Positions 1,965-48,892 of a DNA stretch of 54,678 nt are shown piece after piece. Positions within the stretch are counted from its first letter, which is position 1, and each line of letters opens with the position of its first letter. The translations under genes were made by a program, and so were the position numbers. This stretch comes from a virus: IMG/VR virus record IMGVR_UViG_3300012919_001792, positions 1 through 54,678 of that record, one strand, 5' to 3'. The notes under the pieces are model-generated. The model was given only the letters and a program-made list of their open reading frames with translations. It had not been told where the DNA came from and did not search any database.

Positions 1965-1987
1965 TGAACCTCTTTCTATTCTGTGTT

Positions 1988-2016: not shown

Positions 2017-2029
2017 CGGTTTTTCTCCT

Positions 2030-2044
2030 GGCTAAATACAATTA
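2030..2044 (+). promoter_or_regulatory. Probable late promoter (CTAAATA type)
   Basis: GGCTAAATACAATTA lies just upstream of the plus-strand structural block. The identical 15-mer is at 26306-26320, in front of the fibre genes. CTAAATA resembles the T4 late promoter TATAAATA read by the gp55 polymerase. With T4-like geometry the transcript would start near 2046 and give a leader of about 13 bases. Confidence 0.65.
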
Positions 2045-2058
2045 ACAGAGGTATTCGT

Positions 2059-18400: not shown

Positions 18401-21400
18401 GGAAATGCAGACAGTTTACTTGACGATATTATTACAATACAAAAAAATGATAAAAGATTAATAACTCCACTAGCAACTACAAACCAATTTAGTTTGGGTA
18501 ATGATTACTATCATCAGGATGAAAGTACATTCAGTGAATTTGATAGTTGGTTAAAAAATGCAGGATATCCTCTCACATCAGAGATTGATGAACAAGCACT
18601 AACAATAAATGATATTCCAGCCTTGTATGATAGTACAAAAGATTACGCAACAATATTGGCATGGGATGATACCACAAGTTATAAACAAGGTGATAAAGTA
18701 AGATACCAAGACAAGGTGTATCAAGCATCTGTGGCTTCAACTGGTTTTCAAACTACAACCAATCCTATTACTTGGAATGGTACTGTAAACAATCCTGTTA
18801 TTCTTCCTGGTAATAGTTTAGTGATTGATGGAAACACTGTTAATCTTGTAAACACAGTTACCACTACAACACTCAATAATATTGTAATTGATTCAGTAGC
18901 AAATCCAGTGGTAAATGGTGGTGATACACTAGTAATTGATGGCACAAGTATTACATTTGTTAAAAGTTCAACAACAACCAGCTATCCAGATTTTGCAGTG
19001 GCTGGTAGTACGGTAAATCCAACTATTGTAGGCAGTGCCACAAAGACATTAATCATCGCAGGTGTTACTGTAAGTTTTGACGAAACTGAAGCAACTACAG
19101 TTAACAGAGATTGGACTTATTGTGTTGGAGATCAAATGACCAGTGCCTCTGTTTCAAGTGTAACAGCCGCAGATAGAATAACAGCTTGGACAAACTTAAG
19201 AGCATCATTGCAGAGTGTATACGGAAATGCTACAACTAGAACAAAACTTGATACTTACTTGAACTCCAGTGAAGCAGGTTTTGATACCAGTGTGCTGGTT
19301 ACTGAACATGGAGCAACTTCTAACGCTACACTACAAGGACATATACTTACATTCCTTACACAAGATGTAACAATAATAAATGAAAAGGCAGGCACTAGTT
19401 ATGTAACTGCTGATGTGCTTAATGGTTCAACACCAGTAAATGCCAGTGATGAAACTACTACTCAAACAGCATTCAATCTAAGCACATACACAGACGATAT
19501 ACACAACTGGCTTACTAACTCAGCAAATGACAGTACAGTAATAGCAGGTGGTATTATTGTTATGAGCGAAGCAGGAACACAGTACAAAACATATTCTGCT
19601 TCAGAAATTGTAAGCAGAATTACTGCCGCATCTATAACAAATGTTACTGCAAGTTTGGTAAGCAATCAACTTACTCTTACAAGAGGTGGTAGAACAGCCA
19701 GTGATAAGGATCTGACTATTGGAGCCGGTACTGCCAATGCAGAAGTTGACAACGCTGGTACTACATTTCCTGCAAGTGGATCAATTACACACACAGGTAC
19801 TGATACAACCACTACTAGCAACACTGCTCAATTAACAAACGCAGATATTGTTGATCAAATCAACACAGTTGGAATAAGCAACATAGGTGTTGTATTGAAT
19901 GGAAATCAAATTAGACTTACAAAAAGTCCAACATCACTGTCACCAACTTTGACACTGGATGGAACAGCTATCAGTGATTTAGGTGGCGGATTTACAATTG
20001 GTATTATACCAAGCACCAGTACTACAAGTTCTGCAAGTGCAAGTTTGAGCGTTGGCTTGGTAGCACAAAAAATAAATGATGCTGGTTTGACAAATGTTAC
20101 AGCCGCGGTAGTCAACAATAGAATTGTTATCACAAGTTTGAATAATTCAGGTATTATTGCAAATACACAGGCCGCTCTTGATTTGGGTATCAACACAAAT
20201 ATTCTAGGCGTTACTAGAAATGCTACAACTTCAACTGGAGTCAATACTTTTAATTCTTCAAACTGGACTGAAATAGATGAACCATTGTTGGAGTATATTT
20301 GGGTAGCTGATGATAATGAATTAGGTTACACCACAATAGATTCTATTACTGCAAAATTTAATGGCTGGAATGTATTCAAAGTTATGGACTTTGATATGTA
20401 TGCTAGTAAAATTTGTGCGGCAACTACCACCGGCGAAGGAAACGATGCTGAAGTACAATGTAATAAAGCACATAATTTACAAAAAGGTGACATAGTTTTA
20501 CTTTTAAATACAGATTGTAAACCTGCAATAGATGGATTTCATACAGTATCAGGAACTGATACTGCCAGCACTGCAAAGTTTTTTATCAATGAATACATTG
20601 ATCAAGATGCCAGCTTTGCAAAAGTTTTAGTACTTCGTCCTGTACGTTTTTCAACAGATAATCAGCGTAACAGTGCATTGTCTAGTTCATCGTACAATTT
20701 TGCACAGTTGGACAGAATATGGGTTGATGGTACAAAAGATACTGGATTTAAAGTTTACACAAAAGATGACACAGCTACATGGACAATTCTACGTAGCCAA
20801 GGCGATTATCATGTTTCGCCAACAACTATACAAAGCAGTAAATTACACAATAATGTAACAACCATTGCCAATGCTGAAGCATATGATCCTTTTAAGGGCA
20901 TAGTGCCTGGTATTGCAGATTTAGAAATTGACTACAGATCAATCAATGATCCTGCAATATATACAGCAAGCACAGATACCACCGCACAAGTAAATCAACA
21001 GCAGGCATGGGGTAGTGATCATGTTGGCGAAGTTTGGTGGGATACCAAAAAAGCAATCTATATAGACTATGAACAAAGTACCACAGAATACAGAACACAG
21101 AATTGGGGCAAACTTTTCAAAGGTGGTCAAATTGACGTATACGAATGGACAAAAAGTGACGTTGCGCCTGATCAATATGCTACAAGTGTTGAAGGCGGTA
21201 AAGTTATTAACGGAGTAGAACTGACTGGTGAAGCGTTGAAAATAGTTGACAGTTTTGGAAATGATATATACTATTACACAGAAGTTGATGAGTACGACAG
21301 TACTATTGGTAGCAATGTTACCTACTATTACTTTTGGGTTAAAAACAAAACTTCAATTCCATTAGGTACAAAAAGAATAAGTTCAGTGTTGAACATTGCA

Positions 21401-24400
21401 AGCAATATACTTAGTCCAACTGCTCAGGGTATTAAATGGCTTAATGCTACTGGCAAAGACAGTTTCATAGTTTCAAATCTTAGAGACAACACTCAAGAAA
21501 ACACAATATTACAAATCACTAACATCAGTAATATGGATAATCTTCATACTCATTGGACAAACATTACAGAAAATCAAACTCAGATTCCTGAATATTTTCA
21601 TAGAAGATTAAAAGACAGTTTGCGTGGCAACAATGAAGACCGAGCTACAAAAACTTTCAAAGGTCAATGGGTAAATGGTACATCATACAGCAAAGGCGAA
21701 ATTGTTTCAGTTGATGCACAGATTCCAGCTATAAAAGTTGCAGTGCAAGCCAAAGCGACTACTCATAGATTCTACAACAGAGGTAGTGGAAATGGCTACA
21801 CATTCAATGACAAGCAAGATGATACTGGTTTTATTCTAACACTACAACGTGGCAAGAGCTATATTTTTGATCAAAACAATGGAACAAACACTGCACATGG
21901 AATACTATTCAGCACTGACTTGGATGCAAAACATAGAGGTTTAAACTACTATGAACCTAATGCAAATCTAGTTACAAGTGATGAAGGCGTAATTTATATG
22001 TTGGATACTGTAGCAGTTACAGTTGATGCGTACAACACTGCAATAGGTAATGGTAGTAATACTCAGCACAAATCAGTAGTGTTTACGCCAAATGAAAACA
22101 CACCAAATAGAGTTTGGATTGGTTGTTGGAATCATAGATTAATGGGCAATGAAATATTGATTGTCAATGAAGAAAGAGATGAAACACCAAGTTACTACAT
22201 GAGTTTGATAGATAGCAACAACGGATATTATCCACAGGTTACCAAACGTGCTTGGCGTAGAATTTTCAATACAACCGAAGCTGATGAAGTTGAAGAAACT
22301 ATTTCAATACCGCAACCAAGACTAGTACCAGATTTGAATCTACACCCACTTGACAGAGTAGGTGAAGGCGTTAGACCAAGTAGAAGTTGGTTTCCTTATA
22401 AAAATATTAGCAGACGTGAAGTTGTAAGTCAAGTAAATAATTTGCTAATCAATACAAACTTGGTTGATGCAAAACCAAACTATAAAACACTTCTTGACAA
22501 AACAATTAGCATAGGTGCCAAAGATTATAAAGTAGGAGATTACTTTTTGAATGTTGATTGGTTTGCAGATACCTTTGATAAGTTTGTTATACCAAATAGA
22601 GAAGTAAATGAAATAACTCCTACACTTACAAGTGGCGATGCAGATCAATTGGTTGGACAGTATAATGGTGAATACGTTCTCGCAAAAAATGTTCTCCATG
22701 CAGATGGAATAGTAAGAGATAGCATTTATGAATATGATTTAGTCAATGCCAAATGGACAGCGGTATACAAAGAAAAAGGCACCATACAGTTAGATGATAG
22801 ACTTTGGGACAGTGTAGTTGGGCAAACAGGATTTGATAATCAAGGATTTGATAACAGTGGATTTGACAATGATCCTATACATGAATTTTCAGAAATTTTA
22901 GATGTGCTGAGAACCGGCATCCTAAGTGATGCAGATTACAACAAAGTATGGTTTGCTTCAATTTATGATGCAGTAAAAGAACTGCCAAATATAGATTGGA
23001 TTAAAAAGTCAACTTATATTATTCCAAAATTAAGTAAACAGGTTAATACTACCAAACGTATTGGTTACGATGCTGTTCCTATTATGGAAGATTATCTTAC
23101 ACAAAACAAACCATACACAACTAAATTTACAAGTGGTAGTCCATCTTACTTCCAAGATCAAAAAACAATAATGGATCAAGGTAGTGCAATTATTACTGAA
23201 CATGAACGTAAAATGTTGATCACGGAGAAAATACAAACTCATACAGAAAATGAATTTACAGAAAATCTAGGCGAGACTGCGGTTATTGTAAATACTCCAT
23301 TGCCTTTTGATGATGTAAGCATAGCTAGAACATATGGATCAAACACCTATACAGTTGAACGTAATCCTATTATTACAGCTTGGCAACACACATCAGGCGT
23401 TGTTGTTGATTATGCACATACCACACCAGAAACACAACATCTAAGTGATACACCAAATAGGGTAGAAGTATTAGCACAAGACATAGATCATGTTTACATA
23501 AGAACCTGTGGAATACCAGGAGCCTATGGAGGACCAGGATACAACGTTGCACCAAACAGTGAAACTCTAGTGCTTGATCAACGACCAAGTTATACTGGAG
23601 AAGTTAAATTCAATTGGAAACTACCTAAAGAACCTTGCCAAGCCACAACAACACAGGACAGAGGTGCAGGTCCTATTGCTGTAATGACAAATGGTGTTGC
23701 AATATTCTCACCTAGAGATTACGAACCATACACAACCAACAGCAACTATTATAGAAATGAAATGTACTTACGGCAGTACGAAATGGATCCAAATAACGGA
23801 ACCAGCGTAAGTTCAAAAGGAGATAATGCACCTGACGTGGCTGGCGTATACTATCATTATGATTATGCCGCCGAATATGCCAAGTCTGATAGTCCAACTC
23901 TGCACAGTGGTATAGTTGGTTGGGCATTGGATGGATATCCAATTTATGGTCCATATGGTTTTGCGAACGCAGATGGTTCAGGTGGTATTATTAAAATGAC
24001 ATCTGGTTATACACTGAAAACTGGATCAAGAACAGGACTTAACAATCCAGGTGGCACCTATGACGGAACATACACAGCAGATTATCATTATACAGGCGCT
24101 TCAACTCTAGATCAATACAATGGAAGATTTGCAGTGACACCAGAATATCCAGATGGAGTATATCATTATCATGTAACTCCGGGTGTGTATCCTTATGTAA
24201 TTGGTGATCAGTTTTATGGAGATAAAACTGGCACACACATTTATGACGGTACCACTGTCATACAACCATGGAAACCTTCTGTAATTAAAGACTATGACGC
24301 ACATGATGTTACAGCAGATGGCGGAGCATTTACTACAACTGATGCTAGTTACACCTTTATATACAACGGACAGAGTTTTATAAATCAATATGAAAAACGT

Positions 24401-26305
24401 GGATCAAGTCAATATTTTTCAGATTTCAATGAAGCATTAGATATTCGCGTACAAACAAACCCACAAGGCACAGTCACAGCAGGTGCAACTTATAGTGTAA
24501 ATTCTGAAGAAGCTAATCCAAGAGGAATCACATTCAACAACGACGGAACAAAAATGTTTATAGTTGGCACTTCTGGAGATGATGTAAATGAATACACTCT
24601 TTCAGTGGGATTTGATTTAACTTCTACAGTAACCTTTATAGACAGTTTTGCAGTTACGCAATGTCCAAATCCAACAGCCGTAAAATTTAATGCAGATGGT
24701 ACAAAAATGTTTGTTACTGGTGTAGGCAATAGTAATGTTCATGAGTATGCACTGTCATCTGGATTTGATGTGTCTACTGCAAGTTTTACTCAAACACTTG
24801 TAACCACTGTTGACAATGACAATTTTGGACTTGACTTTAAACCAGATGGTACAAAAATGTACATCACAGGAAATCAAAATGATAAGATATATGAATACAA
24901 TTTATCCAGTGCATTTGATATTTCAACTGCTACATTTAACCAAGATTTTAGCACACAACCGCATGACTTTGAACCATTTGGCATAGAATTCAGCCCTGAT
25001 GGAACAAAAATGTTTATAGTTGGCACAATACATAATGGTGTAGACTTGTATCATTTGTCTACAGGTTTTGATATATCAACTGCAACACACGTTGAATTTT
25101 ATTTCGTAGGTGGTAATCCTAGTGGTATACATATTTCACCTGATGGTTTAAATATGTTTGTTACAGGAAATAACAGTGACTTAGTAAAATCATATGCACT
25201 TTCGGCTCCGTATACATTTACAGGTGGCTATCCTACAGCAGATACTAGAAGCTTTATCTACTTTCAAAATAATGATTTGAATGTTCACAGTAGTGTTGTA
25301 GTAAACAACAACAAAGATACAACCAGCGGATCAACTACTGCTGATGCTAGTGAAATCTCAGTAGTTGATGTAAATAAATTTTATGATCCAAACGCAAAAT
25401 ACGAACAATACTACTATGGTAGTTTAGCAGACAACACACATGCAAAGTTTGGAACACACAGTATGAGATTCACAAACAATACTGACAGCGAATTATATGT
25501 TCCTAGTCTATCTACAATGCAGAATGGAGAAGTGCATTTTTGGATGTATATGGACAGTACTGCCACTGATGCAAGAATACTGACATCTAATCAGTGGGGA
25601 CTACGACGCAGTGCGGCTGGTACAATTGACGTAATAGATTCAGCAGGTGCAACACTAGGAATTGGAGCAACAGGATTAGATGATGGTGCATGGCATCATA
25701 TATCTATAATTTGCGATGGAACAAATCTTTCAATATCCAAGGATCAAAATACACCAGCAACAGCGTCAGTTACACAATTTGCTAATATAAGTGGTATACA
25801 ATTTGGTGCAACAACTAGATTGACTAGTACATACAGTGGAAGTGCCGCAGAGAATGTATGGATTGATCAAATGTGTATCAGAGCTACAGCAACTCATACA
25901 ACTGTAGTAGCGGCCGCTAATCCACCACTAGCTGACACTGGTTTAGTTTTAGAAAACTGGGAAATACCGCCTACAGGTCCATTTGCAGAAGGCGAATTCA
26001 TACAACCAGGTATTGTAACTATTGGAACAGAAAGAATACTTTATAGAGGCATTGACAAAACAAATAACAAATTACTTTTCTGCACACGAGGTGCAGAAGG
26101 AACAAGTGCAATAGCTCATAACAATGGATCAACAGTTATAGATTGTGGTCCTAACAATAAAATACCAGCACATAGACAAATATGGCAGTATGGAAACAGT
26201 TTAGGCTTTGCATACAATGATGTAGGTACTAGTTTAGCAAGTGGCTCTGGTACAAAAGAAGAAACAAAGTTTATTAGAAGTGCGTCACGAGGCGAACTAT
26301 TCTAA
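12419..26305 (+). CDS. Giant modular baseplate wedge/tail-fibre protein (gp7 position) with cupredoxin-like, YHYH, propeller and lectin-like domains
   Basis: One open frame of 4628 residues in the T4 gene 7/8 position. The N-terminus (EYLPQYLNTPVNKKFLQSTL) looks like a baseplate anchor. Modules seen: W-x-T-x-Y-x-x-GD carbohydrate-binding-like motifs at about 448, 2082 and 3084; a G-S-x-Y repeat at about 1471-1525 shared with gp6; three tandem LVIDG repeats at 2122-2224; IVxxINxxGIxNV repeats at about 2385-2600; a cupredoxin-like region at 3115-3235 (ending near CWNHRLMGNE); a YHYH-type domain at 3744-3938 (GYPIYGPYG, VYHYHVT); five DGTKMFxxG propeller-like repeats at 4029-4261; and a concanavalin-like domain at 4301-4491. 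It probably links baseplate to fibres and binds host glycans. Function is inferred from modules. Confidence 0.7.
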   Translation: MAEDYSTKNVKGQLPGNQPGKIRKVEKVKTNEYLPQYLNTPVNKKFLQSTLDAMISKSNLETVDNYVGKIKGGWYDDNKDFLIGTKDTDKRYYNGQPGYVVKDADNSIIDITTVDDFFINQKNVLGYTGPKPNTAIFNYTYSPPIDYDMFVNFTNYYWVKDDLPCINVKPSAPFDPDTMVGQTRFSLATSDLGTIDFLNGFKIKFAPNATQNFTGDNTTTAFTTTVNQSVYPLNIIIVNGTRQTTGFTYTGTTLTFSSAPATDAVIEVLHFNMSDINYYANTYIVNNVGRSIELLQLEDEQGRTILSRKMLYSPHQPSGFDMDPHDSHPYDYTQVENRLQDYVLMEPGSLDQNAWSRKNQWYHYNAIVSACTITGTELTSIANDETRARRPILQFEKDIILYNYGKQPGSGTEKFPLHKFNVDFVTKRFTGTDIIGQANYNLLQNVLAWSASTQYNIGDIVKKTVGTSSWYFEAKVPNIGQDPLDADLVVDTVNWQRVYDSGIQNGDRIIFIGTGNTTYDNKIFEVSGAGSSISLTQKLNPALNDKIHTIQGPNFPNNYNGADIVWHDDQWNFPQQKLSKGQAPLFDLYDENQAEIDTTYSNSDFEGSTLMNYVINSATTVDNELGFKAQYKTDAGSSELVFEHPLQSKRYNYDLNSTPKEIRGIYHYAKRTDSTTDAKLLYGPHRRQFNLNRTIYASETAIAPTSGVVTIPVGSDHIKKESSIWYFEYSSQGHWVVREQHQDNPIYIEQIPTRNPDIYMYAGQTATINKDYISTETDLSFVKELDGVTAAPGVTVTDNGDTLSVAIASSGYDPVFLYKATGAGSGASGKIYVVPEDTGYAGNLNSVIHHIHTVTKNGTRVENYTLGATTTTLTGLTKGDVIELRYLPTGDKQSTSQWSTGVHFKNNPLGQDLGQHTHADLRDHFSNKMTSLPGQYASSIGVSDYYLSSKDHQYGGTILSSSYNALPFYIKDDSKNVITHIRSMMNDYDRFKKQLVNKAQQVHNTNNFTTTRELFNETMRQLNIGKDSSFKYATSGMCHWSNATTETFTISDTTQVFTLANSESNDKIHTKSNDHVYVYLKDYDSTETRYIQKLLVRGKDYTLNGNQLTLDTSANLNNNVPAVLTVDHYSRWTNSFVPWTVSKLYFKPEIRPNRIGTTLLCHDGAQHTVDTTDNLHEPDKNLFHLETAILTELENRVYNGFAHTKNWFNSTEFYPRIEAIKEKYGAGDREHWVKGYRAVFDYWIESNNKAYPSLANTGVANFSNQTDANGVTLPGTQAEVLKYLTGTETPHTTPWEMLGYFEKPFFWDTYYDWRSTANGGSDAKRTQLLNDLKLGRKQNPAAPRPNGFKLYSVKIDIGSVVNDAGALVDIVTAGIVSAGDVTKDFVIGDGTSAEDEFKKSSAYNFAIVEAGLRNAPLTYWLEFDNPSAFDTISAGVDVAFINVMTRRIPTITDPVYGSMIANGTIDTISVTNQGSSYSSSPTVTITGDGSGATAEAIVVNNKIVDIKITAGGYGYTNAGVTITDTTGYFAEATVNLKYNQMYKTTGFQAMAWLYNTYNKTGIDLHARNQKTTSQPIINIEGYTSKNLIKVRTLGNSAKAPFVLQDNDLSIVLQKSATKVKFNFSAVKIKKVSAGYEVDGFEIDNKYFNYIQSLQGGTKTITQSGQSVTIYSNYDAQQDASEVAYGTTYNDLTELSNFLAGRTEYMKTKGLQTFEYDAVIREMLEWASSAAINDVHFAFGKKELLFKDSLDRFVDSVYTTNNTVLVEDRTETLLTRECGLSNLKATRNDEGAKIFTNDSSAMLRMTVHFVQYEHVLVLENKTLFNDDVHRPDIAMSFDTYKLEGRRTTSWTGAPTTDGYIVERGGIRNNFESSVREVEDDYFVIDSNAVNTEKRKIAQTSIGYNKPSWADTLPISEDNSFDYYRASIQTKGSKENLKALARHQEVVDPTTDSFEIDEQWLFKTSDFAANNRNYIEMEFNENLVKVNPQGVKIASDGNADSLLDDIITIQKNDKRLITPLATTNQFSLGNDYYHQDESTFSEFDSWLKNAGYPLTSEIDEQALTINDIPALYDSTKDYATILAWDDTTSYKQGDKVRYQDKVYQASVASTGFQTTTNPITWNGTVNNPVILPGNSLVIDGNTVNLVNTVTTTTLNNIVIDSVANPVVNGGDTLVIDGTSITFVKSSTTTSYPDFAVAGSTVNPTIVGSATKTLIIAGVTVSFDETEATTVNRDWTYCVGDQMTSASVSSVTAADRITAWTNLRASLQSVYGNATTRTKLDTYLNSSEAGFDTSVLVTEHGATSNATLQGHILTFLTQDVTIINEKAGTSYVTADVLNGSTPVNASDETTTQTAFNLSTYTDDIHNWLTNSANDSTVIAGGIIVMSEAGTQYKTYSASEIVSRITAASITNVTASLVSNQLTLTRGGRTASDKDLTIGAGTANAEVDNAGTTFPASGSITHTGTDTTTTSNTAQLTNADIVDQINTVGISNIGVVLNGNQIRLTKSPTSLSPTLTLDGTAISDLGGGFTIGIIPSTSTTSSASASLSVGLVAQKINDAGLTNVTAAVVNNRIVITSLNNSGIIANTQAALDLGINTNILGVTRNATTSTGVNTFNSSNWTEIDEPLLEYIWVADDNELGYTTIDSITAKFNGWNVFKVMDFDMYASKICAATTTGEGNDAEVQCNKAHNLQKGDIVLLLNTDCKPAIDGFHTVSGTDTASTAKFFINEYIDQDASFAKVLVLRPVRFSTDNQRNSALSSSSYNFAQLDRIWVDGTKDTGFKVYTKDDTATWTILRSQGDYHVSPTTIQSSKLHNNVTTIANAEAYDPFKGIVPGIADLEIDYRSINDPAIYTASTDTTAQVNQQQAWGSDHVGEVWWDTKKAIYIDYEQSTTEYRTQNWGKLFKGGQIDVYEWTKSDVAPDQYATSVEGGKVINGVELTGEALKIVDSFGNDIYYYTEVDEYDSTIGSNVTYYYFWVKNKTSIPLGTKRISSVLNIASNILSPTAQGIKWLNATGKDSFIVSNLRDNTQENTILQITNISNMDNLHTHWTNITENQTQIPEYFHRRLKDSLRGNNEDRATKTFKGQWVNGTSYSKGEIVSVDAQIPAIKVAVQAKATTHRFYNRGSGNGYTFNDKQDDTGFILTLQRGKSYIFDQNNGTNTAHGILFSTDLDAKHRGLNYYEPNANLVTSDEGVIYMLDTVAVTVDAYNTAIGNGSNTQHKSVVFTPNENTPNRVWIGCWNHRLMGNEILIVNEERDETPSYYMSLIDSNNGYYPQVTKRAWRRIFNTTEADEVEETISIPQPRLVPDLNLHPLDRVGEGVRPSRSWFPYKNISRREVVSQVNNLLINTNLVDAKPNYKTLLDKTISIGAKDYKVGDYFLNVDWFADTFDKFVIPNREVNEITPTLTSGDADQLVGQYNGEYVLAKNVLHADGIVRDSIYEYDLVNAKWTAVYKEKGTIQLDDRLWDSVVGQTGFDNQGFDNSGFDNDPIHEFSEILDVLRTGILSDADYNKVWFASIYDAVKELPNIDWIKKSTYIIPKLSKQVNTTKRIGYDAVPIMEDYLTQNKPYTTKFTSGSPSYFQDQKTIMDQGSAIITEHERKMLITEKIQTHTENEFTENLGETAVIVNTPLPFDDVSIARTYGSNTYTVERNPIITAWQHTSGVVVDYAHTTPETQHLSDTPNRVEVLAQDIDHVYIRTCGIPGAYGGPGYNVAPNSETLVLDQRPSYTGEVKFNWKLPKEPCQATTTQDRGAGPIAVMTNGVAIFSPRDYEPYTTNSNYYRNEMYLRQYEMDPNNGTSVSSKGDNAPDVAGVYYHYDYAAEYAKSDSPTLHSGIVGWALDGYPIYGPYGFANADGSGGIIKMTSGYTLKTGSRTGLNNPGGTYDGTYTADYHYTGASTLDQYNGRFAVTPEYPDGVYHYHVTPGVYPYVIGDQFYGDKTGTHIYDGTTVIQPWKPSVIKDYDAHDVTADGGAFTTTDASYTFIYNGQSFINQYEKRGSSQYFSDFNEALDIRVQTNPQGTVTAGATYSVNSEEANPRGITFNNDGTKMFIVGTSGDDVNEYTLSVGFDLTSTVTFIDSFAVTQCPNPTAVKFNADGTKMFVTGVGNSNVHEYALSSGFDVSTASFTQTLVTTVDNDNFGLDFKPDGTKMYITGNQNDKIYEYNLSSAFDISTATFNQDFSTQPHDFEPFGIEFSPDGTKMFIVGTIHNGVDLYHLSTGFDISTATHVEFYFVGGNPSGIHISPDGLNMFVTGNNSDLVKSYALSAPYTFTGGYPTADTRSFIYFQNNDLNVHSSVVVNNNKDTTSGSTTADASEISVVDVNKFYDPNAKYEQYYYGSLADNTHAKFGTHSMRFTNNTDSELYVPSLSTMQNGEVHFWMYMDSTATDARILTSNQWGLRRSAAGTIDVIDSAGATLGIGATGLDDGAWHHISIICDGTNLSISKDQNTPATASVTQFANISGIQFGATTRLTSTYSGSAAENVWIDQMCIRATATHTTVVAAANPPLADTGLVLENWEIPPTGPFAEGEFIQPGIVTIGTERILYRGIDKTNNKLLFCTRGAEGTSAIAHNNGSTVIDCGPNNKIPAHRQIWQYGNSLGFAYNDVGTSLASGSGTKEETKFIRSASRGELF

Positions 26306-33357: not shown

Positions 33358-33465
33358 TTATTCATAGATATGTTTGTTTTTTTTAGCTTTTTGTATTTTC
33401 TTATTCATCTGTCTTTTCAAACGCAGATACTTAATTTTGGTTTTGATCCAATTTAACCAAGACAT
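33358..33465 (-). CDS. Basic microprotein, H-I-Y-E C-terminus (35 aa)
   Basis: A 35-residue gene at the end of the minus-strand operon. GAGGAGG lies seven bases before the ATG, inside the last codons of the SGNH gene that it overlaps by 13 bases; such a strong ribosome site makes it credible despite its length. The protein starts MSWLNWIKTKIKYLRLKRQM, an amphipathic, tryptophan-containing basic helix, continues lysine-rich and ends KNKHIYE. A second microprotein at 38724 has the same plan and ends KHIYD; a third at 48767 ends PYIYE. No cysteines. It could be a membrane-binding peptide, a partner of the operon's enzymes, or a peptide substrate of its radical SAM enzymes; none is shown. Confidence 0.72.
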   Translation of the reverse strand: MSWLNWIKTKIKYLRLKRQMNKKIQKAKKNKHIYE

Positions 33466-34196
33466 ATTTTAACCTCCTCACCTATATAACGAGCAAAATC
33501 AATATGGGCCTCTACAGTGTAATGACCTGTTCTTCCGTCGATATTATCATAATGATTGTTTTTTCTCATGAATTCATGAGCTGTTGATTTATTTTTGTTA
33601 TGGCCAATTACTGATTGATCTTGATAATAACGATTGTATATATGTCTATATCTATTAGTAAGATCCGGTGGATGAGCAAGAAAATGTATCATACAATATT
33701 TTAAATTTTGAGATTTAAGATAATTTGCCAACAGTGTATAGTCTCTAATAAATGTTTTTTCATCTTCAAGTACATTGTGAAAACTGTTGAGTCCTTGCCA
33801 TAGTTGTTTAGCAAAAGGAATGAATTTTAAATCACCACTTAAATCATAACCAACATAAAATTTAGCTTTGTTTTTGTAACACTTTAGATCTTCTGGTACT
33901 TCAAAGTGATATCTCCAAGTGCTTGTCCAGCCTATCAATACTCTTATATCTTTTTCACCATCTGATATTAACTGTTCAATGTCATCGATAGTGTGTAATG
34001 CAATACTTTCATTGTTGCTTCCGCTGAATGCATTGTTTATGTATTGCCATGAGCTGAAGTAACGTTTGTGTAATTGCCCACTCCAGCTTAACTTCCTATT
34101 ATCATCTCTTGGATCCGTACTATGATCATATTGCCCAGCGCCTACCAGTTCAGCACCTGCTGTATGACTGCATCCATTCACATATAGTACTGTCAT
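33453..34196 (-). CDS. SGNH/GDSL-type hydrolase-like protein A
   Basis: 247 residues. I start at the ATG at 34196 (MTVLYVNGCSHTAGAE) because it forms ATGA with the upstream stop; the longer reading adds a tail unlike the family. VNGCSHTAGAE provides the nucleophile block (Gly-x-Ser as GCS), FSGSNNESIAL the Asn block, and NIDGRTGHYTVEAHIDFA the C-terminal Asp-His block. SGNH enzymes are esterases, lipases or acyltransferases on glycans and lipids. It is a tandem relative of the next protein, sharing NNESIAL, AKQLWQGL and FIRDYT. No signal peptide, so cytoplasmic. Substrate unknown; O-acetyl or acyl groups on a glycan are a reasonable guess. Confidence 0.68.
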   Translation of the reverse strand: MTVLYVNGCSHTAGAELVGAGQYDHSTDPRDDNRKLSWSGQLHKRYFSSWQYINNAFSGSNNESIALHTIDDIEQLISDGEKDIRVLIGWTSTWRYHFEVPEDLKCYKNKAKFYVGYDLSGDLKFIPFAKQLWQGLNSFHNVLEDEKTFIRDYTLLANYLKSQNLKYCMIHFLAHPPDLTNRYRHIYNRYYQDQSVIGHNKNKSTAHEFMRKNNHYDNIDGRTGHYTVEAHIDFARYIGEEVKICLG

Positions 34197-34909
34197 TGTT
34201 TTAATCCGTTTTTGATTAAATGTTCTGCCCAAGCCTTGTGTGCATCTTCTCTGTAATGTCCTGTTCTTCCATCAATTGAATTATCATATCCTTGTTGTTC
34301 TAGCCAACCATTCATTGTGTCTTTCCAACTATTTTTATTTAATACCTTTGGATTTTGAAAATAGTGTTCAAACAATTTATGATAGCGTGTTGTTTTTTCA
34401 TAAAACCATAGTGTCTGTACCATACAATAATCAATATTATGCTGTTCAAAATATGTTACCATCATGGTGTAGTCTTTAATAAATGTTCTTTGTTGTTGTT
34501 CATCTGTGTCAGCCAACGCTACCAAGCCTTGCCAAAGTTCTTTTGCGTAAGGTATACTATCATGCTTGTAAGTTAAACCTTGACTGTTGAAGAACTTAAA
34601 TCTGTTATCTGTTTTATCAAAACTACTATCACAGTCATAGTGATATCTATTAGGATCTGTCAAACCAATTAATACAAAACAATCATTGCTGTTGATTGTT
34701 TGTAAATATTCTAATGTATCTAATGCAATACTTTCATTGTTGTTGCCATTTCTAGAAACATTTACATATTCATAGTCAGGAAAAAGTTGTCTGTGTATAT
34801 GTCCTGCGTAACTGTGGTGTTTGTCATATTCAGTACAATTACTTTTTACATACTCCATTTCTCCGCCGCCGGTATGACTACATCCGTTGACGAGAAATAC
34901 CTTAGGCAT
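34193..34909 (-). CDS. SGNH/GDSL-type hydrolase-like protein B
   Basis: 238 residues, starting at the ATG at 34909 (MPKVFLVNGCSHTGGGE), which overlaps the stop of the upstream radical SAM gene by eight bases (ATGCCTAA). The blocks are the same as in protein A: GCSHTGGGE, SRNGNNNESIALDTLEYLQ, and SIDGRTGHYREDAHKAWAEH. Shared middle segments are YAKELWQGL and RTFIKDYTMM. The tandem pair probably arose by duplication and then diverged; both keep the catalytic Ser, Asn and His candidates, so both may be active. Ends as ATGA with protein A. The acceptor or substrate is not known; it is operon-linked to radical SAM genes. Confidence 0.68.
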   Translation of the reverse strand: MPKVFLVNGCSHTGGGEMEYVKSNCTEYDKHHSYAGHIHRQLFPDYEYVNVSRNGNNNESIALDTLEYLQTINSNDCFVLIGLTDPNRYHYDCDSSFDKTDNRFKFFNSQGLTYKHDSIPYAKELWQGLVALADTDEQQQRTFIKDYTMMVTYFEQHNIDYCMVQTLWFYEKTTRYHKLFEHYFQNPKVLNKNSWKDTMNGWLEQQGYDNSIDGRTGHYREDAHKAWAEHLIKNGLKQ

Positions 34910-37291: not shown

Positions 37292-37839
37292 AATTCCACT
37301 AATCCATATGGCATTGGAGGCAATTCATCGTGTTCGCCTTTTTCCAAAAGTTCTAATAAATCTAGTTGGTTGTATCTTTCAACTTTTTTGTTGATTCGAT
37401 CATCAACAGCATGACAAAATCGCATGGCCATATACCAATAGAATGCAACAGCTAAATCATCATCTAGAAGTATACCGTCGTGTAGTCTTTCCATATTGTG
37501 TATTTTTTCAGCAAACATGTTTGAATGTTGCACATAATCAATTGATGTAATTACCACAGGTTTCCAAATGTTAAATTTTTCAAAGATTTCAAAATAATAA
37601 AAAGACTTCCTATAACAGCTACACGCATTTTCTACAGCAAAATTTTTATAGTCATAGACAAATATAGGCATACCAAGTTTGTTTTTTATTTCCACATAAT
37701 TTGTGTACTGCCAATCTCTAAATGCTAGTTTGATTTTGTTGTCAATTACAAAAGCAACATTGTAGTTTTTGAGATGTTGACATGTCAATATCTTGGGAAA
37801 ATCATCTACATCAAATATTGCAATCAGAACCTGTAACAA
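37288..37839 (-). CDS. Unknown protein, TTG start
   Basis: 183 residues. No ATG is available near the front; the first is deep inside (KLGMPIF). The TTG at 37839 is supported by AAGGA seven bases upstream, inside the SGNH gene it overlaps by 29 bases, so I accept it. The protein is alpha/beta-like, with MLQVLIAIFDVDDFPKILTC, IWKPVVITSIDYVQHSNMFA and LLDDDLAVAFYWYMAMRF. The acidic DDD and SIDY segments might belong to a small transferase-like fold, but no motif can be named. Ends as ATGA with the next gene. Function unknown. Confidence 0.55.
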   Translation of the reverse strand: MLQVLIAIFDVDDFPKILTCQHLKNYNVAFVIDNKIKLAFRDWQYTNYVEIKNKLGMPIFVYDYKNFAVENACSCYRKSFYYFEIFEKFNIWKPVVITSIDYVQHSNMFAEKIHNMERLHDGILLDDDLAVAFYWYMAMRFCHAVDDRINKKVERYNQLDLLELLEKGEHDELPPMPYGLVEL

Positions 37840-38731
37840 CTCTTTTTCCTTGTGCTTTTTTTCTTTTCACTCGCTTTGGTTTTTCTGCTTTGTCTATTAG
37901 ATGCTTTGCTTTGGGATTAATAATTTCAAACAGATGTTCTGCCCATTGTTTATGTGCTGGTGCCATAAAATGACCATATCTTCCATCTACATTGTCTTTG
38001 TGTCCTCTACGAGAACAAAAAGCATGATAGGTGTCATCTTTAGTTTTACTGATAACACGTTTGTTGTTTAGCCAATGTCTTTTTGCAAAACTATCATTTT
38101 CAAATGCAATTTCACGTTGCATCCAGTCTTCATCACCATATTCTCTTTTTGGTGTTTTAAACACTTTATTCATCATACGTTTCATCCAACCTTTTGGTTT
38201 TTTGTCTAACTTTGCTTGTTGATGTGCAAAATTTTGATCATTGAAAACCACCATAGTATGAAACAAAGGTATTTGTTTTTGTTGAAAAAGTGAATCAACC
38301 ATAAGGTATAGATTTAGAAATCTTTTTTCTTGCAGTACATTGTCAGCATATATTTCAAAATATATATCATTGAGTAACTTGATTTCGCTGGGAATACTTT
38401 CATGTTTGCGAGTATAGTTGTTTATTCTTTCCCTATAAAATCCATACTCAGCATCATAACGTGAAAACCTACGCACAAGCCTCATGGGCTCTGGCCATTG
38501 TATAACTGCTATATCACGTGATGTCAATGAGTCAATGTTTTCTAGTGCAAAGTCAGCCACCATTTCTATGTCTGCACCACCTCTGCTGATGTTGACCTGT
38601 GTTCTCTTTAATTTTTTGGCTAACACTCCGCTCCAGCGTAGTTCAAGATCTGCGTCATGCAATTTATCTGTTTCAGTAATTTCAAAGCCTTCAGTGTGAC
38701 TACAACCAGCTACAAAAAGTTTATCAGTCAT
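37811..38731 (-). CDS. SGNH/GDSL-type hydrolase-like protein C with basic tail
   Basis: 306 residues from the ATG at 38731 (MTDKLFVAGCSHTEGFE), which overlaps the microprotein stop by eight bases (ATGACTGA). GCSHTEGFE is the nucleophile block, ISRGGADIEMVADFALENID the second block, and DNVDGRYGHFMAPAHKQWAE the Asp-His block. It is more distant from proteins A and B, with an insertion around 190-245. After the catalytic block it has a lysine/arginine-rich tail of about 30 residues (AEKPKRVKRKKAQGKRVV), which could bind nucleic acid, acidic lipid or a partner. Substrate unknown. Confidence 0.66.
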   Translation of the reverse strand: MTDKLFVAGCSHTEGFEITETDKLHDADLELRWSGVLAKKLKRTQVNISRGGADIEMVADFALENIDSLTSRDIAVIQWPEPMRLVRRFSRYDAEYGFYRERINNYTRKHESIPSEIKLLNDIYFEIYADNVLQEKRFLNLYLMVDSLFQQKQIPLFHTMVVFNDQNFAHQQAKLDKKPKGWMKRMMNKVFKTPKREYGDEDWMQREIAFENDSFAKRHWLNNKRVISKTKDDTYHAFCSRRGHKDNVDGRYGHFMAPAHKQWAEHLFEIINPKAKHLIDKAEKPKRVKRKKAQGKRVVTGSDCNI

Positions 38732-38810
38732 ATATGTGTTTCCCTTTGGCACGTCTATGTCTTAGCCATGTCTTTATTTTCAAACGTATTCTTGTCAACC
38801 ATTTTATCAT
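38724..38810 (-). CDS. Basic microprotein, H-I-Y-D C-terminus (28 aa)
   Basis: 28 residues between a radical SAM gene and an SGNH gene, filling the interval exactly: its ATG forms ATGA with the upstream stop and its TGA lies within ATGACTGA with the downstream start. Such double overlap is a strong sign of a real gene. It starts MIKWLTRIRLKIKTWLRHRR and ends AKGKHIYD, so an amphipathic cationic helix with two tryptophans plus a short conserved end. It resembles the microprotein at 33358 (MSWLNWIKTKIKYLRLKRQM ... KHIYE) in length, W-L-x-x-I start and ending. No other recognised similarity. Too short for an enzyme; regulator, membrane peptide or modified peptide are the options. Confidence 0.75.
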   Translation of the reverse strand: MIKWLTRIRLKIKTWLRHRRAKGKHIYD

Positions 38811-40027
38811 AGATTATTATTTAACTCCGGAAATGTTTGAGCAAAATTTTCTTTGCGATATAGATCTGCTCGTAAAGATTCTTCTTTGAAATCTTCCCAA
38901 TGCTCAGCGTGTAAATCTTCGCTGTTCATAAAGTTTATCATTTTTTCAAAGTGATCTATGCTTGTTCTACAACTTTTATCAGTAGCGTATTTCCAATCAC
39001 CTATATCAATTGGATTACTTGATAAAAGTTTTTTGCTGATCCATTTTTTAGTATGCTTGGGTAAAACTTTCATATTATAGTAAAAAGGTTCATGACAATA
39101 ACCAAAATCCAAAAGTTCTATATATTGTTTTAAATTGTCATTCCAATACTGAGCAAGCTCTGGAAGATAAGCAATGTTCATCAAACTCACTGTACACCAT
39201 ATTTTGTTTTTAACAATGTTGCGGTCAATGATATTGTTCCACAGCTTTACATTTTCTATTACTTTGTCAAAGTTTGAAGGATGTCTTTGATAGTTGAAAC
39301 GTTCACCTAAATCATCAATGCTCCAATGAAACAACACCATTTTAAAATGATTTAGTTTTTCTGCTACTTCTGGTTTAAAATATGTTCCATTTGTGTTGAA
39401 GATCAATTCAATGTGTTCAGCATGCCCGCTGTCTACACACATGTCTAGCAGTTCAAAAAAAGGCGGTATCATAAATGTTTCGCCGCCATAAACACAGATC
39501 TGTTCAACCTGTGGTAACCAATCATCTAGGGTTTCTTTGTTTGCAGTTATTACACTGTCGTTGCGTTTGTGTTGTACAAATTTTTTATCAAAATATGCCC
39601 ACTGCTTGGAAGTTTCTCTGTGAGCTTCAGTGGTCCACTGACTGCTGATAAATGGATTGCATATACGACATTTGATATTGCAGTGACTTCCAAGTTTTAG
39701 ATCTAAAAGTTTTGGTACAGGATTTGTGGTATCAATATCTTCCAATGGTTTGCTCATATTCAAACGCAAACTTTCAATGCCCGCCGCTTCTTCTTTCCAA
39801 CAGTTTGCACACTCTTCAGGACGTTCATTGTTTAAAAATTTTTGTCTAAGTTCTTTTAGACTATCACTTTCCCATGCTTCTTTGAATCCTGCTTCAGGAA
39901 ACTTTAGTACATCCTCGTTTTTGTTGTGGTATTGTTTGCCCACCTGCCGACAACAGGCTCTATAAGTGCCGTCAGTTTGTATTTCTATTTGGGTCCATGG
40001 TAAACTACAAAAGTTATTGGTACGCAT
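38807..40027 (-). CDS. Radical SAM protein with N-terminal auxiliary cysteine region (rSAM-5)
   Basis: 406 residues from the ATG at 40027 (MRTNNFCSLPW), overlapping the upstream gene by 14 bases; a longer reading (MKWLIWVVEHNG) would lie further inside that gene and is less like the relatives. Core cluster C116-NIK-C120-RI-C123, SAM motif VYGGETF. N-terminal auxiliary set: C7, C25-C26, C73 and C76 (NNFCSLPWTQIEIQTDG; RPEECANCWKEE). TNGTYF and WSIDDLG are typical of the rSAM barrel. Peptide or carbohydrate modification is the usual job of this class. The C-terminus (SEDLHAEHWEDFKEESLRAD) is helical and charged. Immediately upstream of the 28-residue microprotein. Confidence 0.85.
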   Translation of the reverse strand: MRTNNFCSLPWTQIEIQTDGTYRACCRQVGKQYHNKNEDVLKFPEAGFKEAWESDSLKELRQKFLNNERPEECANCWKEEAAGIESLRLNMSKPLEDIDTTNPVPKLLDLKLGSHCNIKCRICNPFISSQWTTEAHRETSKQWAYFDKKFVQHKRNDSVITANKETLDDWLPQVEQICVYGGETFMIPPFFELLDMCVDSGHAEHIELIFNTNGTYFKPEVAEKLNHFKMVLFHWSIDDLGERFNYQRHPSNFDKVIENVKLWNNIIDRNIVKNKIWCTVSLMNIAYLPELAQYWNDNLKQYIELLDFGYCHEPFYYNMKVLPKHTKKWISKKLLSSNPIDIGDWKYATDKSCRTSIDHFEKMINFMNSEDLHAEHWEDFKEESLRADLYRKENFAQTFPELNNNL

Positions 40028-41174
40028 CTTTACACCGTTGTGTTCTACTACCCATATGAGCCATTTCATCTGCTGTATAGTCTGTCAACAAAGTATTGCC
40101 TTGTCTGTCTTTTTTAATACCTTGTTTTGCTTGTTCTATCAATTCATTTGTACGCAGAGGCATAAAAGTATGAGTACAATAATTTAAAAATTCTGGAGAT
40201 TTCTGTACAATTTCATACTCCAAATCAATTGCTTCCTGCATACGTCCAGGCATAACCATAAAATAAACTTCCATGTGTCCTCTGTGCTTGCCTTCAAGAT
40301 CGCGATCAATTTTTTCTTGACAAATGCCATCAATGATGTTAGATATTTTTTCTTCATATCTATCAATATATTCAAAATGTATGCTGATGTTAAGGTCACT
40401 ATAGTGTATCAATTCTCTGTAATATTTGGGTAATCTACTGCCGTTACTGTGAGTGCTTAATTTGTGTCCATCATCGTAAACCATTTTAGCAAATTCAACA
40501 TAATTTTTGTGTACTGTAGGTTCTCCTCCACTGACAACAAAATTTGCTTTAGCACCCAACAAAAATTTATTTTTGATCAATTGATATGCATCATACAGCT
40601 GATCCCAACTCTTTTTCTTTTCTGTGTTGTTGTGTACATCAGCAGGACAGTAGCTACAATTAAAATTACAACGCCTGCCCATTTCCCAAAAAACCTGTTT
40701 GTATCCACCAAGATGTGTTCGTTCAACTGCGGCACTGGTATTGTTTCCGATTGAATTAGGACCAAGATTGAATTTGTGATCTGCTGGCTTTTGCGAAAGT
40801 TTTAGTAAACTGTCTTTACTGGTTCTCTTAGCGTCATATTTTGGTATAAACATATCTGCACCACAACTACAAGTAGCCACAGGACAATCAATCCAATCTT
40901 GTGGTATACGTAGATAACCATCATATACATTGCCTAGTGTGCCTGTAAATATTTGAAAACCGTTGTTGTTGATTCTAGTTCCTGCTCCACAGCTTGCCAA
41001 CTGTACAAAGCCATCAAAGTCTATGTTTATATTCTCAATACCAGCCGCACATTTCCATCCTAAAAAATTATTAATACGTTTTGCTACAACTTCTTCCGTG
41101 CTGAGGTCACTGAAGTAACCTTCACTATCATAAACACGAACAGGTCTACCAACTGTAAAATCACTGTCAATCAT
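40014..41174 (-). CDS. Radical SAM protein, auxiliary module at N-terminus (rSAM-4)
   Basis: 386 residues. The ATG at 41174 overlaps the upstream stop by eight bases (ATGATTGA). Core cluster C169-NFN-C173-SY-C176 and SAM motif VSGGEPTV. Before it lies a different cysteine module, about 39-106: WKCAAGIENINIDFDGFVQL, then SCGAG and VATCSCGAD, with C42, C62, C97, C102 and C104 available for extra Fe-S clusters. The protein at 44025 has the same module after its barrel. The helix HYSDLNISIHFEYIDRYEEK and VYFMVMPGRM fit late barrel strands. Extra clusters in radical SAM enzymes usually bind substrate or pass electrons. Substrate unknown. Confidence 0.84.
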   Translation of the reverse strand: MIDSDFTVGRPVRVYDSEGYFSDLSTEEVVAKRINNFLGWKCAAGIENINIDFDGFVQLASCGAGTRINNNGFQIFTGTLGNVYDGYLRIPQDWIDCPVATCSCGADMFIPKYDAKRTSKDSLLKLSQKPADHKFNLGPNSIGNNTSAAVERTHLGGYKQVFWEMGRRCNFNCSYCPADVHNNTEKKKSWDQLYDAYQLIKNKFLLGAKANFVVSGGEPTVHKNYVEFAKMVYDDGHKLSTHSNGSRLPKYYRELIHYSDLNISIHFEYIDRYEEKISNIIDGICQEKIDRDLEGKHRGHMEVYFMVMPGRMQEAIDLEYEIVQKSPEFLNYCTHTFMPLRTNELIEQAKQGIKKDRQGNTLLTDYTADEMAHMGSRTQRCKDAYQ

Positions 41175-46982: not shown

Positions 46983-47274
46983 AACAAACAGGCTGGGCCA
47001 AATCAAAAACTTTATAAAAGAGTCACACAGACTATCTCCAGTGGCGTTTTATTGTGAAATGGTTGAAACACTATTGCTGTTAACAGCTTCAGCAATTCTT
47101 ACATTCACAGTGCTGGATCCTGCTACAGAAATATTCATTCCGTTGTATCTAGCAGGATCAATACTTGGAGTTATCAGCACAGTGATACGCAAGGCATTTT
47201 TTGCCATAGTGCTTTGTGCTTGGTTTGTTGTGATGAACAGTATTGCACTTGTTACATTGGTGTTTGGTGCATGA
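46966..47274 (+). CDS. Small membrane protein
   Basis: 102 residues with a positively charged front (MKRVYRTNRLGQIKNFIKES) followed by two or three hydrophobic segments: about 34-50 (TLLLLTASAILTFTVL), 55-72 (IFIPLYLAGSILGVISTV) and 75-100 (AFFAIVLCAWFVVMNSIALV). No signal-peptide cleavage site is obvious. It lies between kinase and carbamoyltransferase genes, overlapping them by 17 and 4 bases, so it should be made along with them. It may anchor enzymes to the inner membrane, but that is a guess from topology. No family recognised. Confidence 0.65.
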   Translation: MKRVYRTNRLGQIKNFIKESHRLSPVAFYCEMVETLLLLTASAILTFTVLDPATEIFIPLYLAGSILGVISTVIRKAFFAIVLCAWFVVMNSIALVTLVFGA

Positions 47275-48782
47275 TCACTTGGGGTTGGACTGGACTTTCG
47301 CATGACGCTAGTATGGCAGTGTTTCACAAAGATAATTTGGTGTTTGCGGCACACAGTGAACGCTACAGCAAAAGAAAAAATGATAAAATAATTCATCCTG
47401 GACTTATGCAAGACGCATTTGCTTATGGTCCACCTGATGAAATATTCTTTTATGAAACACCATGGCTCAAAAAAACACGACAATTATACGCAGGACAATA
47501 CGGTTTATTAAAAAAAGAATCGCCTGATTATTTTTTAAAAATTGTAAATGATACACTTAGAAAAAGTAGTATCAGCAACGGCAACTTACCACCTAGTCAG
47601 TATACAAGACATCATCACAGTCATGCCGCCGGAGGCTACTATACATCCACATACGATCATGCAACCATTGTTGTTTTGGACAGTATTGGTGAATGGGAAA
47701 CATTCACCATATGGGAAGGCATAGATAATCAACTGCACAAACGTTTTTCACAATCATATCCACACAGCGTAGGAATATGGTACAGTGCTATGACACAGCG
47801 TATAGGATTGAAACCACAGGAACATGAATACATATTGATGGGAATGGCCGCAATAGGAGATCCAAACAAATACTACAATGACATTAAAAAAGATTTTATT
47901 GCACGTATGCCTGATCAATCAAATCCGCGTGTAAAGTTTAAACGCAACTGTCATAGAGGTTGTTTGGATTGGAGACCTGATCTACGCACACCACAGGACT
48001 ATGCTGATATTGCCAGTGCCACACAGCGAATATACGAAGAAATATTCACAGGCATTCTAGAATACGCTCGTATTCATTATCCTTCACGCAACCTTGTGTT
48101 GATGGGTGGCTGTGTGTTAAATTGTGTTGCAAACAGTTTGGCCGCTGATTACTATGATGATATATGGATAATGCCCAACCCAGGTGATGCTGGTTCGGCC
48201 ATTGGCTGTGTTCTAGCACACAAAAAGAAAAGAATAAATTTTGATCATGCTTACTTGGGTACAGATATTCCAGGTCCTTATCCTATAGAAGAAGTACTGG
48301 AAGATCTACACGAACACAAGATTACAGCGGTTGCTTCGGGCCGAGCCGAGTTTGGACCACGAGCACTAGGACATAGAAGTATCTTGGCCGATCCCCGAGG
48401 CTCCGATGTAAAAGACAGAGTAAATCAATTGAAACAGCGTGAAGCATTTAGACCTTTTGCACCAATGATACTTGAAGAATATGCTGATCAATACTTTGAA
48501 ATGCCAGTGCCTACTTCCCCGTACATGCAGTATGTGGCAAAATGCAAGCATCCTGATAAATTTCCTGCTATAGTACACTACGACAACACCAGTAGAGTGC
48601 AGACTGTTGGCAAAGAAATGGGTCCTGTACGTAAACTACTAGAGCGTTGGCACAGTGAAACAGGCTGTCCAATGCTGTTGAACACCAGTCTTAACATCAA
48701 AGGTCAGCCATTGGTTAATTGCAACCATGATGCAAATAGATGGATTATTAAAAATGGAGTTGACATTTGCTTGCCCGTATAG
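47271..48782 (+). CDS. Carbamoyltransferase, NodU/CmcH/TobZ family
   Basis: 503 residues from the ATG at 47271, which makes ATGA with the preceding stop. All family marks are present: GLSHDASMAV at the front, HHHSHAAGGYY (about 113-123, the Kae1-like metal-binding histidines), GGCVLNCVANS (about 278-288), EFGPRALGHRSILADPR (about 359-375) and REAFRPFAPMI. These enzymes activate carbamoyl phosphate with ATP and transfer the carbamoyl group to a hydroxyl of a sugar, as in nodulation factors and antibiotics. Normal forms have about 500-600 residues. Carbamoylating a surface glycan is the simplest role given the neighbouring transferases. The gene end contains an early-type promoter. Confidence 0.92.
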   Translation: MITWGWTGLSHDASMAVFHKDNLVFAAHSERYSKRKNDKIIHPGLMQDAFAYGPPDEIFFYETPWLKKTRQLYAGQYGLLKKESPDYFLKIVNDTLRKSSISNGNLPPSQYTRHHHSHAAGGYYTSTYDHATIVVLDSIGEWETFTIWEGIDNQLHKRFSQSYPHSVGIWYSAMTQRIGLKPQEHEYILMGMAAIGDPNKYYNDIKKDFIARMPDQSNPRVKFKRNCHRGCLDWRPDLRTPQDYADIASATQRIYEEIFTGILEYARIHYPSRNLVLMGGCVLNCVANSLAADYYDDIWIMPNPGDAGSAIGCVLAHKKKRINFDHAYLGTDIPGPYPIEEVLEDLHEHKITAVASGRAEFGPRALGHRSILADPRGSDVKDRVNQLKQREAFRPFAPMILEEYADQYFEMPVPTSPYMQYVAKCKHPDKFPAIVHYDNTSRVQTVGKEMGPVRKLLERWHSETGCPMLLNTSLNIKGQPLVNCNHDANRWIIKNGVDICLPV

Positions 48783-48788
48783 TACAAT
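48760..48788 (+). promoter_or_regulatory. Sigma70-type promoter inside the carbamoyltransferase 3' end
   Basis: TTGACA (48760-48765), a 17-base spacer and TACAAT (48783-48788). Transcription would begin near 48795, upstream of the small genes at 48901 and 49103. Same architecture as the promoters at 1988 and 29156. Confidence 0.7.
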
Positions 48789-48892
48789 TATTAGAGTATT
48801 TGCCTATTGTAGGCAAAAGATTGAAAAAACGTAGACGTAGACGTGAATTGCTGGAAAAAATAAAACAGCAGGATCCATACATCTACGAATAG
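48767..48892 (+). CDS. Basic microprotein, Y-I-Y-E C-terminus (41 aa)
   Basis: 41 residues from TTG 48767, which has GGAG seven bases upstream, inside the carbamoyltransferase gene (16-base overlap). Its stop is part of the next gene's ribosome site (TAGGAGGA). The protein begins as a hydrophobic helix (MLARIVQLLEYLPIVGKRL), then five arginines in a row, and ends KQQDPYIYE. The hydrophobic-then-basic plan and the I-Y-E end resemble the microproteins at 33358 and 38724, although the middle differs. A shorter form from TTG 48800 (30 residues) would be made from transcripts of the promoter at 48760, which starts inside this gene. Less certain than the other two because of the TTG start. Confidence 0.5.
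   Translation: MLARIVQLLEYLPIVGKRLKKRRRRRELLEKIKQQDPYIYE
48799..48817 (+). other. Perfect hairpin at the presumed 5' end of an early transcript
   Basis: TTTGCCTA, loop TTG, TAGGCAAA: eight perfectly paired bases beginning about four bases after the predicted transcription start from the 48760 promoter. There is no T run after it, so it is not a standard terminator. It could stabilise the message or hide the TTG at 48800. Confidence 0.45.

Follow-up and report, generated by a model that had tools for sequence, protein, structure and literature searches.

Phage microproteins with a conserved DPF[IL]Y tail are mostly encoded next to TobZ/NovN-type carbamoyltransferases

The IMG/VR virus record IMGVR_UViG_3300012919_001792, analyzed here over its whole length of 54,678 nucleotides (“the window”), is a fragment of a T4-like phage that encodes a late sigma factor and baseplate proteins; genes for radical SAM, SGNH-like, carbamoyltransferase, PhyH, and desaturase proteins form a cassette in it. 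Three tiny open reading frames (ORFs) in the window, designated microproteins (a), (b), and (c) (Table 1), end in Ile-Tyr-[Asp/Glu], which raises the question of whether they are genes at all, whether they belong together, and which of the neighboring enzymes, if any, they serve. An earlier note on this DNA, made from the sequence alone, saw in them a single family of operon-embedded genes that could encode peptide substrates of the radical SAM enzymes, membrane peptides, or enzyme partners. All three ORFs exist and have conserved counterparts at equivalent positions in related uncultured phages, and the ending of (c) proved to be that of a widespread, apparently undescribed viral family of basic 30- to 50-residue proteins that terminate in DPF[IL]Y[KDRE]. 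This modular tail is tightly linked in viral genomes to one clade of carbamoyltransferases.

A search of IMG/VR with the pattern [KE]DPFIY[KE] followed by a stop codon returned at least 120 matches, nearly all of them ORFs; among the matches listed, most encode 30 to 47 residues with a hydrophobic/aromatic start and a basic middle part. These sequences comprise at least 73 distinct microproteins, at least 44 of them at less than 80% identity, with free synonymous codon variation, an average net charge of about +8, and an average of 3.3 aromatic residues in the first 16. In the 63 distinct tails that were tabulated, the last residue is Lys, Asp, Arg, or Glu, always preceded by Tyr, and Phe and Ile, which the pattern left free within limits while requiring Asp, Pro, and Tyr, are found in 62 and 61 tails, respectively. 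The tail is also present in matches to a hidden Markov model (HMM) profile of the family that were found without requiring it. A signal at the DNA level, such as a TATAAATA-like promoter at the IYK-stop sequence, was ruled out, as the codons of the motif vary synonymously. Some viruses encode a second tail protein (L028:1886-2011, L131:8221-8406, and G001:98120-98236 and 106359-106472), with such variants as DPYIYK, DPYLYR, and DPFIYK, so that, as in the window, a single genome may carry several paralogs.

Microproteins (a) to (c) had no match in PHROGs, where plain microproteins of the family gave only insignificant matches, and DPFIYK was not found in the open-access literature searched. Direct tblastn comparison of the microproteins with phage records found nothing, probably due to masking of their basic low-complexity stretches. 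The strict tail had no matches in nine phage records, including P-SSM2, P-SSM4, HTVC008M, Mosig, S-SSM7, and S-CAM8; where these phages have a carbamoyltransferase, it is a distant one. In contigs of bacterial genomes, the pattern was matched at least seven times; four of these matches are family ORFs in contigs of marine metagenome-assembled genomes, and each of the genomes concerned has a gene, complete or fragmentary, for this carbamoyltransferase as well. The bacterial count is a lower bound because the first pattern needed Lys or Glu before DPF and so missed the RDPFIY members; a pattern with Arg in this position had no matches in 297 genomes of one order.

The link to the carbamoyltransferase was evident in two independent collections of loci, neither of which was chosen by the tail. 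In the first, a tail ORF is found within 300 bp of the enzyme gene in 55 of the 90 dereplicated carbamoyltransferase loci (48 upstream and 7 downstream of it) and within 1.7 kb in 63. A nearby tail accompanies 48 of the 64 carbamoyltransferases scoring 700 bits or more versus 6 of the 24 distant ones. In the second collection, which came from an SGNH search, the carbamoyltransferase occurs together with the tail in 2 loci, 78 loci lack the two, and none has only one of them; the gene order in L376 and L389 is radical SAM-SGNH-tail protein-carbamoyltransferase. Around 37 dereplicated tail proteins, for which contig ends shorten the counts of neighbors, a carbamoyltransferase gene lies within two genes in 16 cases (14 of 855 genes overall, ∼1.6%), and an SGNH gene in 11 (13 of 855, ∼1.5%). 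Each tail protein in the eight contigs that were scanned adjoins a carbamoyltransferase or SGNH gene or has one close by, and in many T4-like loci the pair is flanked by a gp61-like primase gene and a gp41-like helicase gene (both named by eye). In a phylogenetic tree, the tail-linked carbamoyltransferases form a single broad group that is supported, with absences scattered through it, some of which stem from the 1.5-kb limit; this tree is only illustrative because the tail was the criterion by which many of its rows were collected.

The enzyme itself belongs to the TobZ/GdmN/NovN/VtdB type. The window protein contains both Pfam domains of these class III O-carbamoyltransferases (PF02543, E = 2.2e-35, and PF16861, E = 2.5e-51), its PDB profile matches are NovN, GdmN, and TobZ, and an AlphaFold2 model of its relative from L134 matches the same folds, although the phage enzymes are shorter, about 490 to 520 residues. 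His133, His134, and His137 are invariant in 17 homologs, and literature passages on GdmN describe its use of His133 and His137, so the phage His133 and His137 can be predicted to correspond to this metal-binding pair.

The same tail also ends a 355-residue GatZ/KbaZ-like protein (L233), a 138-residue SnoaL-like protein (L239), SpeD (S-adenosylmethionine decarboxylase), a 70-residue Cys-rich protein, and acidic linkers (L231, L299, L376, and L389); the larger carriers were covered by a Pfam scan. The carrier adjoins the carbamoyltransferase in all cases except SpeD and the Cys-rich protein. That the front parts change while the end stays constant suggests that the end is the functional unit. 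Contigs examined over their full length encode one or two tail proteins each, and further large carriers are absent from them. Within one viral group, SpeD bears the tail in some contigs (L101, L048, L029, and L138), whereas in others (L020, L024, and L103) SpeD is without it and the tail is on the 70-residue Cys-rich protein encoded next. On the minus strand of L054 (positions ∼1312 to 3156), one reading frame interrupted only by single stop codons covers the genes of the tail protein, of a small membrane protein, and of the carbamoyltransferase.

Within the window, (c) is located directly behind the carbamoyltransferase gene, overlapping its end by 16 nt, and its orthologs in L004 to L006, ending in DPFIYE or DPFIYD, follow the orthologous enzyme; its TTG start corresponds to ATG in L004 and L005. 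Outside of the overlap, the comparison with L005 indicates purifying selection (pS of 0.65 and pN of 0.16, synonymous and nonsynonymous differences, respectively). The family HMM ranks (c) second of the 1,447 ORFs of the window (E = 1e-4), a score reached by none of 500 full shuffles and by 5 of 500 shuffles that kept the tail. By its sequence, (c) is a member of the DPFIY-tail family, a placement that draws mainly on the tail and the orthologs because lysine-rich chance ORFs also reach an E value of 3e-4. It is for the DPFIY form, and hence for (c), that the link to the carbamoyltransferase is strong.

Microprotein (b), with the GAGGAGG sequence ahead of it and a 13-nt overlap with the end of an SGNH gene, ranks first among the same ORFs (E = 5.7e-6), with none of 1,000 shuffles scoring as high. 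Orthologs in L177 and L227, which the SGNH search recovered again (as L311 and L310, respectively), likewise follow an SGNH gene of this kind and bring the sample to three genomes; pS is 0.79 and pN is 0.17 against L177. Judged by profile score and orthologs, (b) is very probably a member of the family. The overlap of microprotein (a) with its neighbors amounts to 4 nt at the radical SAM stop and to 8 nt at the SGNH start (ATG 38731, MTDKLFVAGCSHTEG). A single positional homolog, MKKRIAKIKVKIKSLIRKFRNRKKQRHIYE (L002, positions 8732 to 8824), precedes the same GCSHTEG SGNH gene behind a different gene, so that the sample here is two genomes. The family HMM did not detect (a) (E = 0.27), 77 of 500 tail-kept shuffles scored the same or better, and among the 1,447 ORFs the profile does not separate it from shuffles; its tail and position suggest that it possibly belongs to the family. 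Furthermore, an 8-nt overlap of a gene with the next ATG brings with it the sequence TATGANTRR, which forces Tyr-[Asp/Glu]-stop. The Tyr-Asp-stop of (a) is therefore largely imposed by the ATG of the next gene, and the overlap accounts for part of the tail in both (a) and its L002 homolog. It does not explain (b), (c), L177, or the DPFIYK forms, in which the tail contains no start of a downstream gene or has TAC as its Tyr codon. Both (a) and (b), with KHIY[DE] endings and SGNH genes as neighbors, probably follow a variant of the family plan, a conclusion that is safer for (b) than for (a).

The earlier note gave the coordinates of the three genes exactly, and both the locking of (a) by overlaps with its radical SAM and SGNH neighbors and the GAGGAGG ahead of (b) are present in the sequence. 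ORFs of at least 28 codons ending in [HYF]IY[DE] number three in the window versus a mean of 0.03 and a maximum of 1 in 60 dinucleotide shuffles. The view of them as real operon-embedded genes missed by annotation is supported by conservation at equivalent places, since homologous short frames were found in related phages for (a) (L002), (b) (L177/L311 and L227/L310), and (c) (L004 to L006), and by the coding constraint on (b) and (c) (pN/pS of about 0.2 to 0.4). Their assignment to one family holds for (c), is well supported for (b), and is only suggested for (a).

Table 1. Microprotein genes of the window and the genes adjoining them
Feature	Positions	Strand	Description
Microprotein (a)	38724..38810	minus	28 residues, MIKWLTRIRLKIKTWLRHRRAKGKHIYD; tail KHIYD
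SGNH-like gene (GCSHTEG)	37811..38731	minus	Downstream of (a); true start probably ATG 38731
Twitch-domain radical SAM/SPASM protein	38807..40069	minus	Upstream of (a); NF033640 (E = 1.8e-93), PF04055, PF13186
Microprotein (b)	33358..33465	minus	35 residues, MSWLNWIKTKIKYLRLKRQMNKKIQKAKKNKHIYE; tail KHIYE
SGNH-like gene (GCSHTAG)	33453..34232	minus	Upstream of (b); GCSH motif read by eye
Microprotein (c)	48767..48892	plus	41 residues, (TTG)LARIVQLLEYLPIVGKRLKKRRRRRELLEKIKQQDPYIYE; tail DPYIYE; TTG start
Carbamoyltransferase, TobZ/GdmN/NovN/VtdB type	47271..48782	plus	Probable start ATG 47271; PF02543, PF16861

The GCSHTEG gene had no Pfam match, and the GCSHTAG gene had no Pfam or NCBIfam match. 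Elsewhere in the window, positions 12419 to 26305, after the baseplate genes, form a single open frame of 4,628 residues.

As to function, the enzyme-partner option is the one that gains support. The D-P-[FY]-[IL]-Y-x tail can be proposed, with slightly better than even confidence, to be a recognition motif for the neighboring TobZ/NovN-type carbamoyltransferase, the small protein being a dedicated accessory subunit or an adaptor. The tail would dock on the carbamoyltransferase, and the variable front part, usually a hydrophobic segment followed by a strongly basic one but in some cases an entire enzyme-like domain or an acidic linker, would hold the enzyme at the membrane, at a nucleic acid, or at another protein of the pathway. 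Several observations weigh against this proposal. Carbamoyltransferases of L014, L015, and L017, which are inside the clade, have no tail gene in the stretch examined. Conversely, some tail proteins (in the SpeD, Cys-rich, and podovirus-like loci) have no carbamoyltransferase on the fragment examined; these fragments are mostly short, but G043 spans 61 kb. Only (c) has an adjacent carbamoyltransferase; (a) and (b) neighbor SGNH genes, and no carbamoyltransferase was seen on the contigs that carry their homologs (36 and 50 kb). Finally, in two AlphaFold2 runs on the natural read-through chain of L134 (tail protein, 60-residue linker, and carbamoyltransferase), the tail did not dock, with predicted local distance difference test (pLDDT) values of roughly 50 to 70, whereas most of the carbamoyltransferase was above 90; this is weak evidence, speaking neither for nor against docking, because the chain was a monomer modeled in cis.

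The closest known parallel is the HypE/HypF pair, in which, according to PMC9633730, a carbamoyltransferase that uses carbamoyl phosphate and ATP recognizes the extreme C terminus of its dedicated partner. The phage enzyme, however, matches TobZ/GdmN/NovN and not HypF, the carriers are tiny or unrelated proteins, and none of the 63 tails contains the C-terminal cysteine of HypE. The TobZ/GdmN/NovN/VtdB enzymes are not known to have a partner with a C-terminal tail, and none is mentioned in the literature passages that describe them. A phage carbamoyltransferase of the same Pfam family, obtained from modified viral contigs by MetaGPA, makes 5-carbamoyloxymethylcytosine and prefers single-stranded DNA; the passages of PMC8670742 on this enzyme link it to dCMP hydroxymethylase and mention no tail partner. 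By eye, no dCMP hydroxymethylase neighbor was recognized in the larger gene clusters analyzed here.

By analogy with HypE, the tail could instead be the substrate, carbamoylated by the enzyme with the conserved Tyr as the obvious acceptor, and the small protein could be a carbamoyl carrier or a modified product. Its location at the extreme C terminus of changing carriers, with Tyr always penultimate (a residue set by the search pattern but also found in the HMM matches), would agree with such a role, for which the action of HypF on the C-terminal Cys of HypE (PMC9633730) offers a precedent. This nevertheless appears rather unlikely, given that the tail has no Cys, class III enzymes are known for acting on hydroxyls of small molecules or nucleotides, the conservation of Asp-Pro-Phe-Ile exceeds what an acceptor would strictly require, and the KHIY[DE] forms adjoin SGNH genes. 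Docking is thus the most likely role suggested by the sequences, ahead of carbamoyl acceptance. A more tentative and doubtful generalization would see a transferable C-terminal hexapeptide, placed on carriers that range from a hydrophobic-basic segment or an acidic linker to aldolase-like and SnoaL-like proteins and SpeD, as a docking code or a carbamoyl acceptor, i.e., HypE-like chemistry outside hydrogenase maturation, with variant KHIY[DE] tails matched to other enzymes, such as the SGNH proteins. The idea of IY[DE] as a still wider tag, common to enzymes in general, was discarded: radical SAM proteins end in this way because of the 8-nt overlap with the next start codon, and the full-length contigs lack other large carriers. 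The KKHIYE ends of a halogenase-like protein (L175:4006-5595) and a large protein (L171:4941-5882) are probably due to chance, given the size of the scan. The radical SAM proteins that end in IY[DE] before SGNH starts (L022, L053, L080, L128, and others) illustrate a general trap in reading conserved ends of phage genes.

It is improbable that the microproteins are free-standing cationic membrane peptides, involved in lysis, disruption of the host membrane, or other anti-host activity, that merely travel with these operons. Their charge and early aromatic residues, as well as holin-like genes near some loci (a resemblance noted by eye), are consistent with membrane activity, but the tail is kept when the front part is acidic or a folded domain, and the tight carbamoyltransferase link would be left unexplained. 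Of the plan proposed earlier, the hydrophobic/aromatic start, the basic middle, and the tail hold up; the amphipathic helix does not, as hydrophobic moments are not above those of shuffles (mean z of 0.43 for the family and −0.25 for (a)). Even less credible is a regulatory leader, with ribosome pausing at the tail and stop codon controlling translation of the next gene: most tail ORFs immediately precede the carbamoyltransferase, frequently overlapping it by 4 nt, and the motif abuts the stop codon, but the tail ORF is downstream of the enzyme in the window and other loci, elsewhere a gene intervenes, folded proteins of 138 to 355 residues bear the tail, and its last residue varies among K, D, R, and E. 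Least probable of all are precursor peptides modified by neighboring radical SAM enzymes, the substrate idea of the earlier note: (a) abuts a radical SAM gene, and short genes near radical SAM genes, as for PqqA and MftA, occur in part of the loci, but radical SAM genes are not enriched near the tail (within two genes of 4 of the 37 tail proteins versus 47 of 855 genes, ∼5.5%) and many loci have none nearby, which leaves this idea unsupported; moreover, the radical SAM proteins tested either fit the twitch-domain family NF033640, which is no equivalog of peptide maturases, or score far under the cutoffs of peptide-maturase models, and the tail, unlike those precursors, is modular, ends folded proteins, and has Tyr second from the end before a variable last residue.

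Carbamoyltransferases are common among the auxiliary genes of marine phages. A conserved tail encoded beside one clade of these enzymes provides a handle on the complex, on the carbamoylated target, and on the question of whether the tail recruits the enzyme or accepts the carbamoyl group. More generally, genes of 30 to 50 codons, which annotation often passes over, can serve as markers of an enzyme subclade, and the motif described here can be used for annotating them.
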